Shown here piece after piece: positions 28,082-34,567 of a DNA stretch of 64,000 nt. Location of the stretch: positions 4,092,001-4,156,000 of the forward strand of contig NZ_CP041036.1 in assembly GCF_006385555.1 (NCBI RefSeq), written 5' to 3'. The notes under the pieces were generated by a model. That model did not search any database. It was not told the DNA's origin and was given only the letters and a program-made list of their open reading frames with translations. The number at the start of each line of letters is the position of its first letter. The stretch's first letter is position 1. This DNA comes from Shewanella polaris. GTDB taxonomy: Bacteria; Pseudomonadota; Gammaproteobacteria; Enterobacterales; Shewanellaceae. A program made the translations under genes and the position numbers.

Positions 28082-29352
28082 ATGCCACCCATTTTTTGAA
28101 CAAGTAACATAGCTCGTTTTCATTTCTTTGGCGAGAGCTCTGCTTGATTTACTCAACAGATCAATTTCAATCGATATGGCTAAAACATTAACGCTAAATG
28201 AGTTATTTATCCGACATTCGCGGAATTAAGCACAGCAGAAAATCTTGATAGCAATCAAGGATAAGTTGAATTATGGTTTTGAGGAATTAATGCTTACGCA
28301 CACAGCCAACGCTGGCAGTTTGATGCGCCTTGTCGCCGCTTTCGCTCTAGATGTTCACAATATTGTGTTAATGCAGGTAAAGCCCCTACCGCACCTTTGA
28401 ATAATGCACCAAACTCTGTGGTGATTTTCAACCAGTTTTCAGCAGGAATATTTAATCTATTCAGTATGTCTTGGCTGCTTGAGCTAATAGCGCCTCGCTT
28501 ATCTTCTCGAATAATCCGACCGGTATCTTCGACTAGTACTATGTAATCTTTCACACTGAACATTAGCCCGTTAGGCATGTTTAAACGCTCATTCCCAACA
28601 AAAGGTAATAACTCTGCAGGTTGCTCACCTTTAATCGCTGAATTTATACGTCGTTGAATACTGGTGTAGCCTGAGTTTTCAGGGGTGGTAGCCATCCTGG
28701 CACGAATAGGATTTAAATCGACATAGGCCATACAAGCTAACACTGCGGCTTCATCAAGCAAAGCTTGAGATTTAAACCTGCCTTCCCAGAATCTTCCGGT
28801 GCATTTATCTTCTTTATTGGCCTGTCTGGCAATCGGTTCACTCAAGGAGCGCATAAACCAACTGATATCGACTAAGCGTTGTCGGTATTGGTTGATAGAG
28901 TCATTTACCGTCTCTAACTCAAATTCATTCAGGTCTTCACCTTTTACAAATTTATGTGTCAGTAAGGTACCTTTAAAACCTTTATGCCACTGTATCAGCA
29001 CATCTTTATCTGACCAGTGTTTTGCTTTATCTGCATCGACTTTAACAACGACATGTAAGTGATTGCTCATCACTGCATAAGCACAAATATCAATAGCAAA
29101 AATGGTAGCAAGTTCAAGTATACGAGAATCAACCCATTCACGCCGATGTTCAAAATTCTCGCCTGTCGAGTTATCGATACCACACAAAAAGGCTTTACGC
29201 ACCACACGTGAACAACAGTGATAATAAGGAGTGTCTTCTAAGCTAACGATAGTTTGTCTTGGTCTGGCCATCATTCATTACCTACAAGTAAATAAAGATA
29301 ATTAAAGACTAGACCAATGCTTAAATATTCGCCAACTATCTTGGGTGGCCAT
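28082..29352 (-). mobile_element. RAYT transposase unit with inverted ends
   Basis: The transposase gene lies between ATGCCACCCATTTTTT at 28082 and CTTGGGTGGCCAT ending at 29352, an inverted pair. A 35-base element at 29547-29581 joins the same two ends directly. The bounds are inferred from this comparison. Confidence 0.55.
28294..29274 (-). CDS. REP-associated-type Y1 transposase (Transposase_17 / TnpA_REP family)
   Basis: The 326-residue protein opens ARPRQTIVSLEDTPYYHCCSRVVRKAFLCG and has the HUH metal-binding motif SNHLHVVVK, then a GRFWEGRFKSQALLDE block and the AYVDLNPIRARM segment, as in single-strand REP transposases. It is longer than IS200 enzymes because of a C-terminal region of about 100 residues common in Shewanella-type proteins. 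Inverted short repeats flank it. It appears intact. Confidence 0.85.
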   Translation of the reverse strand: MMARPRQTIVSLEDTPYYHCCSRVVRKAFLCGIDNSTGENFEHRREWVDSRILELATIFAIDICAYAVMSNHLHVVVKVDADKAKHWSDKDVLIQWHKGFKGTLLTHKFVKGEDLNEFELETVNDSINQYRQRLVDISWFMRSLSEPIARQANKEDKCTGRFWEGRFKSQALLDEAAVLACMAYVDLNPIRARMATTPENSGYTSIQRRINSAIKGEQPAELLPFVGNERLNMPNGLMFSVKDYIVLVEDTGRIIREDKRGAISSSSQDILNRLNIPAENWLKITTEFGALFKGAVGALPALTQYCEHLERKRRQGASNCQRWLCA

Positions 29353-29592: not shown

Positions 29593-29773
29593 TAACTAAT
29601 TAGCAAAGAGGCTAAGGAAACTTGCTGCCTACTGAAAAGTAGCTAGCTAACAATCACATCAAACAGCGCGTTTTCTCGAACTTTTAATTACATAATAAAG
29701 AGTCACATCTCACGTGTTCGGGCTTGTTCAACACTTGGGATAAGGACGCGGCTTCGCGCGGCCTATCCTTATT
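29593..29773. repeat. Direct repeat, copy A (partial cassette plus attC)
   Basis: 181 bases match 32758-32937 with one substitution and one single-base insertion. The shared segment contains one attC and about 130 bases of ORF-less cassette sequence. Confidence 0.95.
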
Positions 29774-29781
29774 TGTTAGGA
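29726..29781 (-). other. attC site A
   Basis: Outer cores are GTTCAAC (29726) and GTTAGGA (29775) as read on the plus strand, enclosing an imperfect stem with a GGCTTCGC turn. On the minus strand the stop codon of the adjacent cassette gene lies inside its first core. Confidence 0.75.
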
Positions 29782-30510
29782 TTTTTTTCTCGTTAAATAT
29801 TTAAACAATCCAAAAACTCCACCAATTAGGCCGCCAATAATCGAAGCAATTAAGGTTTGCCCCAAATTAATACCAAATAGAGTTGGTGCGTTGTCAGTAA
29901 TGCGGGGCTTATAGACATCAGATGGATCAACGGTGATGCTATGTATCATATTATTATATGTTGGTTTAAGTTTAGAAAACCCGTCCTCTTTTCCATAGCC
30001 CATAAATTGAACAATTCCATATTCAGTAAGTTTGATCGCGATCAGCCCTTTGACTTTCCCAATATCAGCTACTTCCATCGACATCGCGGACCATAGAATA
30101 TGCTTATCTTGGTCATATAAAGTTTCTCCCATGCTCACATTACTTAATAAGTCACCAGCAGACTCTTCGACCTTCTTGATACCTTTTTCAAAGCCATTTT
30201 CGATTTTTTTATATTGCTTTAGCTGTCCTTCAGGGACTCGTCCAGTTCGTTTAACCTGAACTAAAGCATAAGGGTGCTCGAACCAATTTACAGCACTAGT
30301 TGATTGATATCCGTATTCGAACGTTTGAGCCTGACCAGTAGCATTTTTTACAGATTTCTCATATTGGTCAAGTACATCTCTTGGAATTTCTACCCAGTCG
30401 GATGGTATTGATATTTGAAAATCAGTTCCCGCAGTTAAGATATTGTCCTGTGCCACTATGGGGAGAGAGGAAATAATCAAGAATACGGTGAACAATATCT
30501 TTATTTTCAT
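29776..30510 (-). CDS. Cassette-encoded exported protein with C-terminal membrane helix
   Basis: The 244-residue protein has a signal peptide (after IVA-QD) and a region containing FQISIPSDWVEIP, as in lipoprotein-like PsbP/SCP-type domains. It ends with a glycine-rich membrane helix ASIIGGLIGGVFGLF followed by a basic tail. It is not otherwise recognised. The start lies 13 bases after the GTTAGGAT core and the TAA stop sits inside the next core, the standard layout of an integron cassette. No promoter of its own is seen. Confidence 0.75.
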   Translation of the reverse strand: MKIKILFTVFLIISSLPIVAQDNILTAGTDFQISIPSDWVEIPRDVLDQYEKSVKNATGQAQTFEYGYQSTSAVNWFEHPYALVQVKRTGRVPEGQLKQYKKIENGFEKGIKKVEESAGDLLSNVSMGETLYDQDKHILWSAMSMEVADIGKVKGLIAIKLTEYGIVQFMGYGKEDGFSKLKPTYNNMIHSITVDPSDVYKPRITDNAPTLFGINLGQTLIASIIGGLIGGVFGLFKYLTRKKS

Positions 30511-30521
30511 TTTCTATGTAA

Positions 30522-30619
30522 TCCTAACGCCCTGTTAAGAGGCGAAATTTAGTTGGCTAAAATGTTGAGGGACGAAAACAGCCAACTGAATTTTGTCCTG
30601 TTTAAACAGCTTGTTGAAC
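30522..30619 (-). other. attC site C
   Basis: Cores TCCTAAC (30522) and GTTGAAC (30613) enclose 84 bases. The arms AAATTTAGTTGGCT and AGCCAACTGAATTT pair with one mismatch, and GCCCTGTTAA pairs with TTTAAACAGC. It lies directly upstream of the cassette gene. The IS91 element begins right beside its GTTGAAC. Confidence 0.85.
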
Positions 30620-30718
30620 GAAGCCGCTCTGCGGCAGAAAAGATAAAAGCCCATCTTTCTCACCATCATAAATACTTACTAGACCCTGCCTACCTTGGCA
30701 TTACCTAGGAGTATCACC

Positions 30719-31609
30719 ATGGACACTCATGAACAACAACGCTTTGATTTTCTTTATGAACAACATCTTACCAATTTAACTCTGCAAGGCAAGCGGCCTG
30801 CTACCATCGATGCGTACAGTCGCGCAGTTAGGCGCATTAGTGCTTATTTTGACTGTTGCCCTGATAACCTTTCAACCGATGATTTGAAGCGTTATTTTGC
30901 TGATTTAATTGCCTCTCACTCCTGGAGTACCGTAAAACTCGACCGCAATGGATTACAGTTTTTCTACCGGTATGTCCTTAATCAATCTTGGGAGTGGCTC
31001 AACATTGTTAAGCCGCCGCAGGTCAAACGCCTACCGGATATTCTAACCCCTGCCGAAGTCTCAATCGTCATTAGCCTCACCCATAAGCTGCGATATCAAG
31101 TGTGCTTTTTAACCTTATACAGTATGGGGTTGCGCCTCGGTGAAGCAATTTCATTACAGGTTGGCGATATCGATTCAGCGTTGATGCAGGTGCATGTTCG
31201 TGACGCCAAAGGCGGCAAGGATAGGCTAGTACCTTTACCACAACGCACATTGTTAGCGCTTCGGTATTACTGGCAAACCCATCGCCATCCTCGGCATGTA
31301 TTTCCCGGTAAAGATGGCAAGCCAGACTCGCTGATGGACCGCGGTGGTATTCAAAAGGCCATGAAAAAAGTGATTTCTGAGTGCAACATTCACAAATCTA
31401 TCAGTCCACATAATTTACGTCACAGCTATGCGACTCATTTGCTAGAGCAAGGATTAGATTTACGCTCAGTACAACACTTGCTCGGTCACAACAGCCTCAA
31501 CACCACAGCAAGGTATACACGTCTCACTCATATTACCCGTAAAAACACGGCCTTGTCGGTTAACCAGCTCACTAATAATTTGGTGTTGAAGTGGGAGTGT
31601 GACATATGA
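30719..31609 (+). CDS. Tyrosine recombinase of the IS91-type element
   Basis: The 296-residue site-specific recombinase has an N-terminal SAM-like domain (YEQHLTNLTLQGKRPATIDAYSRAVRR). Its catalytic domain has arginine I in GLRLGEA, HNLRHSYATHLL (H-X-X-R) and the tyrosine in TARYTRL. It lacks the extra helix inserted between conserved patches in integron integrases, so it is not IntI. AGGAG precedes ATG 30719. The stop overlaps the transposase start by 4 bases, so the two are one unit. Confidence 0.9.
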   Translation: MDTHEQQRFDFLYEQHLTNLTLQGKRPATIDAYSRAVRRISAYFDCCPDNLSTDDLKRYFADLIASHSWSTVKLDRNGLQFFYRYVLNQSWEWLNIVKPPQVKRLPDILTPAEVSIVISLTHKLRYQVCFLTLYSMGLRLGEAISLQVGDIDSALMQVHVRDAKGGKDRLVPLPQRTLLALRYYWQTHRHPRHVFPGKDGKPDSLMDRGGIQKAMKKVISECNIHKSISPHNLRHSYATHLLEQGLDLRSVQHLLGHNSLNTTARYTRLTHITRKNTALSVNQLTNNLVLKWECDI

Positions 31610-32673
31610 AGTTTATCGATATTTTACGTGACCATCTTGATGCGTTTAATCAAGCTTATGATGGCCAAATAACAACATCAATGCGCCATGCCATTAATGC
31701 CATGCTGAGCTGTCGCGTTCACACCCAAAGAGCTAGCCACTGGGTTTGTCAGGGTTGCACTCATACAGCAGATTTCCCGCTGTCATGTGGTCATCGCAGT
31801 TGTCCCCAATGCCAGTACAACACCACAGCGGATTGGTTAGCTAAGCAACAGGCTAAATTGTTATCTGTCGATTACTTTATGGTGACATTTACTTTGCCAT
31901 ATGAGCTGCGTGTGGTGGCTAAATATCAACCGGAAGCACTCTATCCAGCCATGTTTTCAGTGGCTGCCAGTGTGCTCAAAGACTTTGCACTTAACTCACC
32001 AAAACTTGCCGGTGATATTGGTTTCACTGGCGTGCTGCATACTCACAGCCGGCGGCGAGATTTACATCCGCATATTCACTTTATTATTCCAGCGGGCAGT
32101 TTCAACAAAACCCAACAACACTGGAAAAAGAATAAGGGCAAATACCTGTTCAACGCTTTCAATTTGGCTAAAGTGTGGCGCGCACGTTTACTGGAACAGT
32201 TGGCAAAACTGAATCTCAAACTGCCAACCTCACTGCCGAAAAAGTGGGTGGCTGATTGCCAGCATATGGGTAAAGGTTTGCCTGCACTGCAATATCTATC
32301 ACGCTATCTTTATCGCGGCGTACTGCCAGATAAAAGCATCAAAAGTGATGTCGATGGGCTTGTTAGTTTTGAGTATAAAGACAGTCAAACTCAGTCTACA
32401 AAAGTACGAACCTTACCCGCTACTGAATTTCTCTGGTTAATACTGCAACACGTATTACCGAAAGGGTTACGACGAGTGAGAGACTATGGATTACTCAGAG
32501 GCAATGCCAAAAAACTCAGGCTACAAATACAACTGATGCTGGCGGTTGCTGGGGCTGTATTTCCAATCATTCCCGAGATAAAGCGCAGATTAGCAACACG
32601 CCGTTGCCCCTGTTGTCAGCAACCAATGCACTTTATGGGCATAGTGAAACGACCGACAAACTTAATACCCTGA
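31606..32673 (+). CDS. IS91-family Y2 rolling-circle transposase
   Basis: The 355-residue protein has an N-terminal zinc finger (CQGC, SCGHRSCPQC), the HUH motif HPHIHFIIPAG near residue 157, and two tyrosines in YLSRYLYRG near residue 236 as nucleophiles. A second Cys cluster (CPCCQQP) lies at the C-terminus. It appears full length. It transposes through a single-strand intermediate and can mobilise flanking DNA. ATGA overlaps the recombinase stop. Confidence 0.92.
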   Translation: MKFIDILRDHLDAFNQAYDGQITTSMRHAINAMLSCRVHTQRASHWVCQGCTHTADFPLSCGHRSCPQCQYNTTADWLAKQQAKLLSVDYFMVTFTLPYELRVVAKYQPEALYPAMFSVAASVLKDFALNSPKLAGDIGFTGVLHTHSRRRDLHPHIHFIIPAGSFNKTQQHWKKNKGKYLFNAFNLAKVWRARLLEQLAKLNLKLPTSLPKKWVADCQHMGKGLPALQYLSRYLYRGVLPDKSIKSDVDGLVSFEYKDSQTQSTKVRTLPATEFLWLILQHVLPKGLRRVRDYGLLRGNAKKLRLQIQLMLAVAGAVFPIIPEIKRRLATRRCPCCQQPMHFMGIVKRPTNLIP

Positions 32674-32757
32674 ACCTAATGTTGAAAATGATAATAAGGA
32701 TAATGGCTTAACTGAATACCGTGGAGGGTTAATTTAAGATACTGAAATATAGCGAGT

Positions 32758-32937
32758 TAACTAATTAGCAAAGAGGCTAAGGAAACTTGCTGCCTACTGA
32801 AAAGTAGCTAGCTAACAATCACATCAAACAGCGCGTTTTCTCGAACTGTTAATTACATAATAAAGAGTCACATCTCACGTGTTCGGGCTTGTTCAACACT
32901 TGGGATAGGACGCGGCTTCGCGCGGCCTATCCTTATT
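32758..32937. repeat. Direct repeat, copy B
   Basis: 180 bases nearly identical to 29593-29773, on the other side of the IS91 element. Confidence 0.95.
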
Positions 32938-32945
32938 CGTTATAT
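32891..32945 (-). other. attC site B
   Basis: Almost the same stem as site A, but its outer core is GTTATAT, which pairs with the start of the adjacent lipoprotein cassette (minus strand TTATATGCC against GGCATATAA). Confidence 0.75.
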
Positions 32946-33007
32946 GCCTTTTCATAGTTGCCAATTTAAGTTTTTTATTACTTAAATTACAACGAGTACC
33001 TTATATG

Positions 33008-33364
33008 TTAATTTCCGCACCGTATATAAATTGACTCTCCACCACCTTCATAAAGGTTTCTTGATTCATCAATAATCTTCATGTACTTTTTACACCCTAA
33101 AGGTTTATTTTTGTTTAAACGGATTAGTTTTTTTAACCTTTCCAAGCTTGGAGTACTTTCACCTGTCACTGAGAAATCAACAGCTTCAAAAACAAAATAT
33201 GTTCCCTCACCATAAGATTCTTTAACTGTTATTAGCCAATTTCGATAGTAATGATTTTTATTTATATCTAGAAATCGATTATCAATGCTAACGCAACCAG
33301 ACAGAGTGCTTATAGTAATAAATATAAAACATAAGATTACAAAAAATATATTATTTGAGAGCAC
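33008..33364 (-). CDS. Cassette-encoded lipoprotein, unknown
   Basis: The 118-residue product begins with a hydrophobic signal and the lipobox LSGC, so it is probably a lipoprotein. The rest shows no known domain; two further cysteines are present. The open frame extends to 33442 but would run through the attC. AAGGAGAGA lies before two consecutive GTG codons, and the second (33364) has better spacing. It is AT-rich. The cassette starts at a GTTATAT core just upstream. Confidence 0.65.
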   Translation of the reverse strand: MLSNNIFFVILCFIFITISTLSGCVSIDNRFLDINKNHYYRNWLITVKESYGEGTYFVFEAVDFSVTGESTPSLERLKKLIRLNKNKPLGCKKYMKIIDESRNLYEGGGESIYIRCGN

Positions 33365-33379
33365 CACTCTCTCCTTGGC

Positions 33380-33481
33380 ATATAACGCCCGCCTAACACG
33401 CAATGTGTTGGCGTGGCTTTTTGCGTTGTTTGCCAAAACCATGACAACGAAACATTGTCGGAGTTTAGGCGCTTGTTAGGT
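33380..33481 (-). other. attC site D, VCR-like
   Basis: Cores are ATATAAC (33380) and GTTAGGT (33475), the latter a perfect GTTRRRY. The arms AACGCCCGCCTAA and TTTAGGCGCTTGTT pair, as do ACAATGTTTC and its partners inside. The 102-base length and the GGCGGGCGTTAT end resemble Vibrio cholerae repeats. Confidence 0.9.
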
Positions 33482-33949
33482 GCACTTTATTATCTGTACA
33501 GGTGAATTACAATGCTCTAAGTTCCCTATTAATTCGTTATTATCTGAATAGTTAGGGCAATTACCAATATTAACAGCATGGACGCTACCATTTGGTTTCA
33601 TCTCGACATCGACAAAAGACGCAACAAGCTGGTCTTCTAATTGACGGCTCCAAGTAAAGTGATAATTGGTATTGTGTGATTTTAGGAATGTTCTATCAGG
33701 CACATTAAATTTACTTGTAAAAGAAGTTAAAGCCACATTCTGATTTTTTACATTTATTCTCGCTGAACGTGCTGTCCAAGAGAACGGCCAAGATCTCGTG
33801 ATATCGACAGCTATGTTGCATTCGCCAAGCTCAGAGGTGCGCGATAGTCCAGAGATTACCTCTGCATATTCGATGTTCTTTAAACTACTCGAACCCGCTT
33901 GGCAGAGCCAAATAAAAAGAATAACTATTGGAATCAATTTACGATTCAT
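33476..33949 (-). CDS. Cassette-encoded secreted protein, unknown
   Basis: The 157-residue product has a signal peptide (LFIWLCQAGSSS) and at least four cysteines in the mature part, including two near the C-terminus that could form disulfides. No family is recognised. The TAA stop lies within the perfect core ACCTAAC of the next attC, and the start follows a GTTAGGAG core by 27 bases, the typical one-gene cassette layout. Confidence 0.7.
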   Translation of the reverse strand: MNRKLIPIVILFIWLCQAGSSSLKNIEYAEVISGLSRTSELGECNIAVDITRSWPFSWTARSARINVKNQNVALTSFTSKFNVPDRTFLKSHNTNYHFTWSRQLEDQLVASFVDVEMKPNGSVHAVNIGNCPNYSDNNELIGNLEHCNSPVQIIKCT

Positions 33950-33974
33950 AATGGATACGCCTCACGTCCTTTGC

Positions 33975-34028
33975 TCCTAACAGCTTATTGAACGGCTCGC
34001 ACAATAAAGCCGACCGTTTAAGTTATTG
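33975..34028 (-). other. attC-like site E at the array edge
   Basis: The cores TCCTAAC and GTTATTG enclose 40 bases whose arms (GCTTATTGAACGG, CCGTTTAAGTTATT) pair imperfectly. It is the last cassette boundary seen to the right. Confidence 0.6.
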
Positions 34029-34225
34029 ATTTATATCATCCTACATTCTCTATCTCATTGATGTAAAGCAATTTAATGACTCTGAACCTCCAATATAAAA
34101 CTTCGTTTGCGCGTTAAAAGTGTCGAATTTAAATGCTAAAAAATTAAATTAAACAATATCAATAAATTAGAATTATTCTATTTTTCTCACCGTACTACTT
34201 TAGTTCGATTTTCAATTACGTTTTG

Positions 34226-34268
34226 TTGTTATTCAATCAAAACTCATTATAACTGTATATAAAAACAG
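34226..34268 (+). promoter_or_regulatory. LexA (SOS) box overlapping a sigma70 promoter
   Basis: CTGTATATAAAAACAG (34253-34268) fits CTGT-N8-ACAG exactly. TTGTTA at 34226 and TATAAC at 34248 are 16 bases apart, so the LexA box begins at the -10 element. The promoter points to the right. Confidence 0.8.
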
Positions 34269-34269
34269 T

Positions 34270-34344
34270 ATGGATAACATAAAGGGGGATGTGATGACGG
34301 TAGGGGTATATATAGAAGCGATTTTACCCACACACATTGAGTAA
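34270..34344 (+). CDS. Possible 24-codon SOS-controlled small ORF
   Basis: An ATG starts 2 bases after the LexA box. A second in-frame ATG at 34294 (16 codons) follows AAAGGGGG. Neither product is recognised. This could be a leader peptide, the debris of a lost gene, or chance. Confidence 0.25.
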   Translation: MDNIKGDVMTVGVYIEAILPTHIE

Positions 34345-34567
34345 TTTTTATGTTTCTAGCAAACGAACGGCGTGCTTCCAGTGGTACGCAACAAAGCGCT
34401 TTGTGTTCATTTTCGTTTGAAATTAATGGAGTCAGAATAAACTTTACTGGTTAGCAGCCAATCCAAAATTTTCATCACATTTGACTATCATTAATGGCGC
34501 CGTTAACTTGAACAGAGTAAAAAACTCAGCACGCGTTATCACGTATCACATCAAGCCAAGGAATCAC

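Follow-up and report, generated by a model that had tools for sequence, protein, structure and literature searches.

In the excerpted text of PMC9229058, two kinds of mobile element are described as entering the attC sites of integron cassettes, namely IS1111-type elements, of which the IS1111-attC insertion sequences (ISs) target attC (PMC9229058, citing Post and Hall 2008), and group IIC-attC introns, which enter attC opposite to the cassettes. The same excerpts record three IS91-family elements in variable regions, with no IS seen interrupting an attC, and one copy of the Shewanella IS91-family element ISShvi3 that adjoins an attC and so forms a new cassette structure. Excerpts of two other papers place ISHahl1, an IS200/IS605 element with an HUH transposase, beside a CALIN (an attC cluster that lacks an integrase), adjoining the last attC of the array (PMC7923331), and describe ISCR elements as IS91-like and associated with class 1 integrons (PMC8876359). 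Here we analyse a 64,000-bp stretch of the Shewanella polaris chromosome (the window; C1:4092001–4156000, on one 4.65-Mb contig, C1), which very probably holds a decayed chromosomal integron whose attCs have been entered twice by an attC-targeting IS91-family element that we call IS-A, each time at core R'' and opposite to the cassettes.

IS-A shares an IS91-type transposase with ISShvi3; the two are likened by family and description, and an exact site, an orientation rule, an empty site and an order-wide spread are not described for ISShvi3 in the excerpts of PMC9229058. The IS1111-attC group (IS110 family) also targets attC but has a different transposase, whereas IS-A carries an HUH transposase and a tyrosine recombinase. 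Group IIC-attC introns are retroelements with a ribozyme and a reverse transcriptase, to which the two genes of IS-A have no match. Against the clade Ia model of ISCR the IS-A transposase scores only 20.8 bits (cut-off 925), and we know of no report of ISCR1 entering attC. ISHahl1, as excerpted, belongs to another family, has tnpA and tnpB only, and is a single case lying downstream of its array (PMC7923331). In our searches of open-licence PubMed Central an IS91-like element next to an attC appeared only in PMC9229058, as far as its excerpts go, and as one case; an earlier description elsewhere is possible. A clade of IS91-like elements whose site and orientation are fixed would add to the kinds of element that enter attC, with an HUH enzyme that may read a folded single-stranded site.

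The element and the sites it touches are listed below; sites are lettered as in a first-pass annotation, which was made from the sequence of the window alone, and R1 is an attC covariance model that we built.

30613–32938, plus strand: IS91-family element IS-A, 2326 bp, opposite to the array
30719–31609, plus strand: tyrosine recombinase of IS-A, XerA/XerD-like (PF00589, 3e-33; PF13495, 1e-18)
31606–32673, plus strand: IS91-type HUH transposase (NF033538, 7e-107; PF04986, 7e-43)
32888–32938, plus strand: right end of IS-A, site B with the adjoining GTTATATG core (CTTGTTCAAC, hairpin, CTTATTC)
29593–29774, plus strand: second IS-A relic, site A, right end only, abutting core R'' of cassette 3
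30521–30619, minus strand: attC body of cassette 2, site C (R1 71.3 bits, E 7e-16; outside the training set)
33379–33481, minus strand: attC of cassette 1, site D (R1 84.9 bits; itself an R1 training sequence)

IS-A separates core R'' (CATATAAC) of cassette 2's attC from the body of that site, and its left end, GTTGAAC, now provides the R'' core of site C (30613–30619). Site B is the right end of an intact element because a tyrosine recombinase gene and an IS91-type transposase gene lie between C and B. The transposase has an HxH motif at 154–156 and tyrosines Y230 and Y234, scores 357 bits against NF033538 (cut-off 125), and with its PF14319 and PF04986 matches has the zinc-binding and Y2-type HUH make-up of the IS91 family; the right-end hairpin and the lack of target duplication, the latter judged in one relative, are likewise those of that family. 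The recombinase has neither of the two marks by which we would call it an IntI: it scores 158 bits against TIGR02249 (cut-off 265), and the match falls into two stretches from which positions 181–238, the extra stretch of IntI, are missing. It scores 171.6 bits against NF040815 (cut-off 220), and its best solved relatives by sequence are the XerC-like 4a8e and IntI4 2a3v.

Sites A and B are right ends of an IS91-family element inserted into attCs, and site A is the right end of a lost second copy of IS-A. They are near-identical to each other over about 186 bp, with 99% identity in a block of 150 bp and 97% in one of 36 bp, and both match a further right-end relic at C1:2623510 as well as the end of a second full copy of IS-A, which lies inside a 99%-identical match at C1:2723818–2726236 that also includes an attC. 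The cores at the two ends of the element match each other (GTTGAAC and GTTCAAC/GTCCAAC). When 21 of the 41 distinct right ends are aligned, 91% of cells in the hairpin are paired and 32 cells have changed on both sides, values that none of 500 shuffles reached for either measure; on two other measures, 38 and 176 of 500 shuffles were as high. R1 gives site B 1.2 bits and one right end of a second clade, IS-B, 1.1 bits, on a scale on which class 1 attCs themselves receive only 10–13 bits. We note that the last base of IS-A before GTT varies (A, C or T), even within a genome (A, A and T in G067); in the window it is C at B and T at A.

R1 was built from 10 aligned attCs, none of which touches the element. 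In the training alignment, 89% of cells in the core and arm pairs are paired and 23 have changed on both sides (0/500 shuffles as high, for either measure), and AAG follows R'' in 10/10 sequences. Beyond C and D, the best R1 match in the 64 kb reaches 14 bits (E 0.34).

We searched 129 genomes of the genus with the IS-A and IS-B transposases (threshold E 1e-20) and found matches in 44 and 39 genomes, respectively; from the listed matches we fetched 52 stretches, mainly full-length copies, with partial matches mostly omitted. An R1 attC on the opposite strand abuts the left end at offset 0 in 25/32 Shewanella IS-A copies that have the left-end motif, with an E-value of 0.002 or better in 23 of these and of 0.035 and 0.11 in the weakest two. 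By comparison, a chance R1 match at a given base and strand is expected at about 1e-4 (107 matches in 518,779 bases, both strands). Right ends are followed by GTT in 35/36 Shewanella IS-A copies and by GTTA in 34/36. Where an attC of at least 24 bits lies within 1.6 kb after the right end (n=18), we compared the six letters after GTT with the start core of the neighbouring cassette: they are identical in 14 copies, and 100/108 letters agree, against 81 in the best of 10,000 shuffles. Such identity is what would be expected were the element seated at core R'' of that cassette.

The same pattern recurs outside the genus, in several marine genera. Of 394 genomes of the order (threshold E 1e-40), 45 have transposase matches, in 12/114 genera, own genus included. 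At the 24 loci examined outside the genus, 17/19 left ends abut an R1 attC on the opposite strand, 16 at offset 0 and one at offset 1, two of the 17 attCs being weak (E 0.009 and 0.07), and GTT follows 22/23 right ends. Four more distant relatives (transposase 37–42% identical) extend the picture: in L194 and L195 (about 42% identical) the left-end motif has an attC at offset 0, and in L196 and L197 an attC, of 18.8 and 35.2 bits respectively, immediately precedes the recombinase gene.

A comparison of occupied and empty sites is available on plasmids, where tblastn gave six records, of which three were opened. One of them holds the following relative:

NZ_LT985243.1, 11205–13177: relative of IS-A, carried by a conjugative plasmid of E. 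coli within a class 1 integron

On this IncC plasmid, RCS41_p, the element, a relative with a 71% identical transposase, sits between aadA1 and qacEdelta1. Alignment with the uninterrupted p1658/97 gives an insert of 2336 bp with TTGTT common to both ends, and so at most five shared letters are left at the ends. By the aligned letters, the element entered the attC adjacent to aadA1 at its core R'', to within five letters at most, and in this one comparable pair a long target duplication is absent. The attC beside aadA1 receives only 12.8 bits from R1 (E 0.29), and AAG does not follow its R''. The plasmid copy has no near match among the 20,395 E. coli genome records searched. Two Photobacterium plasmid copies share this left end, and R1 matches both weakly at the corresponding offset, with 16.7 bits (E 0.03) in one and 11.4 bits (E 0.7) in the other; transposases related to that of IS-B are also found on Vibrio and other plasmids. 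Such transposases are present in 12/114 sampled genera of the order, and the E. coli copy shows one relative within a class 1 integron of a conjugative plasmid.

IS-B, which in this genome sits beside an intact intI, differs in where it is found. Its right ends read GTCCAACAAGCG...AA(A/G)ACG, with GTT next in 19/19 examined. At 9/16 left ends it lies, by BLAST, against one of two flank types; type 1 is the attI of the intact integron, and type 2 is taken for an attI on the strength of a neighbouring intI-like match in L144 (43% identity). Among the other left ends, L140 resembles type 2 by eye and L031 abuts another IS-B in tandem, and 5/16 lie at sites that we did not recognise as attI or attC. 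R1 attCs around IS-B are on the element's own strand, save one weak match of 16.3 bits, and two distant elements that group with IS-B (L198 and L199) have attCs downstream on their own strand. The right-end core equals the start core of the cassette in 4/6 cases (29/36 letters; 27/10,000 shuffles as high). In the IS-B left flanks L142, L146 and L149, attI-like flanks are kept and most of intI seems to have been lost in comparison with L144, and integron decay that spares attI may be widespread in the genus.

The anatomy of the element, its site, its orientation and their recurrence across genera can be read from the sequences themselves, and targeting of attC is well supported by them. IS-A enters attC at core R'', oriented against the cassettes; its left end, GTTGAAC, hands the attC body a new R''-like core, so that the invaded attC stays recognisable, and the right-end hairpin comes to lie against the old R'' core. 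IS91 has GAAC or CAAG next to its right end as its target, and its movement begins at that end; the letters joined at IS-A insertions are YAAC. We infer that the HUH transposase is the enzyme responsible for targeting: it may cleave single-stranded DNA after RYYYAAC, with movement in the manner of IS91 starting from the right-end hairpin and the element being joined to the sequence that follows R''. The recombinase could aid the choice of attC or the resolution of products.

Alternatively, the tyrosine recombinase rather than the HUH enzyme could choose and cut the attC core, which we regard as unlikely, if a possibility to be reckoned with. The recombinase is related to XerD and IntI, and none of four IS91 elements without a recombinase match (L190–L193) abuts an attC, the attC of L192 being about 900 bp off, at the end of another gene. 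Yet it lacks the extra stretch of IntI, and the hairpin end, the lack of a long target duplication and the AAC/GTT target also fit IS91-type HUH transposition as it is generally known. Moreover, two distant elements that do have the recombinase, L083 (on a 3.4-kb contig) and L189, have no attC at the left end.

It is conceivable, although we doubt it, that each jump of IS-A makes the element a cassette, with the left end giving a core and the right-end hairpin plus the old core acting as a second attC. If this were true, one transposition would turn one attC into two, leftover right ends such as site A would become attCs, and new attC sites and cassettes could arise by this route. Slightly less probable still is that the elements simply are gene cassettes, with a true attC as right end, that IntI inserts and excises. 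IS-B would suit such an origin, being in array orientation, often next to attI and once in exact tandem (C1:1064528–1069254), and one of its right ends, as a bottom strand, folds at -13.0 kcal/mol (z -3.8) into a structure in which the two core arms are both paired. The matching cores at the element ends point the same way, and the excerpts of PMC9229058 name one ISShvi3 next to an attC as a new gene cassette structure. In L034 (4245–4300) an IS-A-like hairpin and a core GTTGGAG precede non-element sequence, which may mark the scar of an excision or what is left of a decayed element. In L189 an attC of low score (19.4 bits) begins with GTTCAAC some 270 bp beyond the transposase gene, on the strand of that gene and at the place expected of a right end. 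However, the abutting IS-A copies lie opposite to the array, which insertion by IntI at R' would not yield, and all 51 internal cores TCGGGCTTGTT among the fetched loci still run into the CAAC of the element and so are unrecombined. The R1 scores of barely more than 1 bit for one right end of each clade argue weakly against true attCs, and two right ends without the internal GTTGAAC also speak against them. In these two (L125 at 1187 and L128 at 6771), about 20 other bases stand instead, yet both ends still abut a core.

Real targeting might also be lacking: an element of the IS91 type could need only a short target, for example GTTA, and survive mainly in neutral arrays. GTTA does follow 34/36 right ends, and the unrecognised sites at 5/16 IS-B left ends would fit, but abutment on R'' in one orientation in 25/32 and 17/19 copies, set against a chance of about 1e-4 per copy, makes this very improbable.

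Several observations weigh against insertion of IS-A into attC as we describe it. R1 scores no attC at 7/32 Shewanella left ends or at 2/19 left ends in other genera, one of the latter (L172) having masked letters there, and two right ends (L111 and L177) are not followed by GTT. L083 and L189 lack a left-end attC despite their recombinase, and the control set without recombinase consists of only four elements. R1 itself was trained on 10 sequences and yields only approximate E-values, and it performs poorly on the cassette attCs of class 1 integrons. Natural empty sites were searched for the window's cassettes 2 and 3, and none was found.

At the other end of the array lie remains of the integron itself:

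33979–34323, minus strand: attI and divergent intI promoter region, site E (core 33974–33981)
34267–34433, plus strand: intI pseudogene relic (start codon 34294)

Site E is 85% identical over 346 bp of DNA to the corresponding stretch, attI with the promoter, of the genome's intact integron (L030, C1:709k). With the intact IntI (P0004) as query, tblastn matches 34267–34356 and 34353–34433 (E 3e-7); besides an internal deletion, the relic carries an in-frame stop codon and a change of frame. Measured along the contig, the intact IntI is 3.4 Mb distant; were the contig a circle, the distance would be about 1.2 Mb. The region is a decayed integron rather than a bare attC cluster, since attI, promoter region and broken start of intI are kept, and these head a correctly oriented array. 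The first-pass annotation had seen here a CALIN with five attC sites and no IntI in the window. The window indeed holds no working integrase, a likeness to a CALIN, and C and D, site D being one of R1's own training sequences, supply the at least two attCs that the label calls for, but attI and the intI relic remain here. The relic had been missed, as had the two-gene element between C and B and the intact intI elsewhere in the genome. A plain CALIN with five attCs is hardly credible: C and D are attCs and A and B do follow a minimal core-hairpin-core pattern, but A and B are part of a mobile element with copies elsewhere and E is an attI beside an intI relic. The five-attC reading was accordingly dropped for A and B, as element right ends, and for E, as attI. 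For annotation, right ends of this kind can pass for attCs and decayed integrons for CALINs.

The array comprises three cassette genes:

33476–33949, minus strand: cassette 1 gene, 157 aa, no Pfam, NCBIfam, PADLOC or PHROGs match
33008–33442, minus strand: cassette 2 gene, open reading frame (ORF) of up to 144 aa, no family match
29776–30510, minus strand: cassette 3 gene, 244 aa, no family match

The minus-strand array of three one-gene cassettes, as first annotated, is present in the sequence, and the stop codons of the genes at 29776–30510 and 33476–33949 lie inside cores. The pairing of each cassette start with the first core of its own attC, put forward at the same time, holds for cassette 2 (GTTATATG/CATATAAC) and cassette 3 (GTTAGGAT/ATCCTAAC). 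A covariance search, the check proposed with that annotation and made here with R1, returned C and D as significant. Homologues lying outside arrays with the same flanks were to have counted against it; homologues of the cassette 2 gene at 75–77% DNA identity occur in three genomes (G051, G045 and G121; loci L154, L155 and L156), and no R1 attC was found in these fetched loci, so that they lie outside R1-detectable arrays, but their flanks are different. The true start of the cassette 2 gene is probably downstream of the attC that the ORF overlaps. At the limits used, no Pfam, NCBIfam, PADLOC or PHROGs match pointed to a function for any of the three genes, and Rfam gave nothing at gathering scores; by eye, the cassette 3 protein has a signal-like N-terminus and a hydrophobic C-terminal stretch.

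Next to the array, the gene at 28294–29274 of the window is weakly like REP-associated (repetitive extragenic palindrome) tyrosine transposases (40 bits, cut-off 80), and a near-repeat lies beside it at 29334 and 29563. An IS110-family gene is also present in the intact integron of the same genome, where two similar stretches (L030 9075–10690 and 11700–13310; C1:713k–717k) occur. The first contains an IS110-type gene (NF033542, 209 bits) and the second is IS110-type by eye, and both lie at cassette ends, like IS1111-attC elements.

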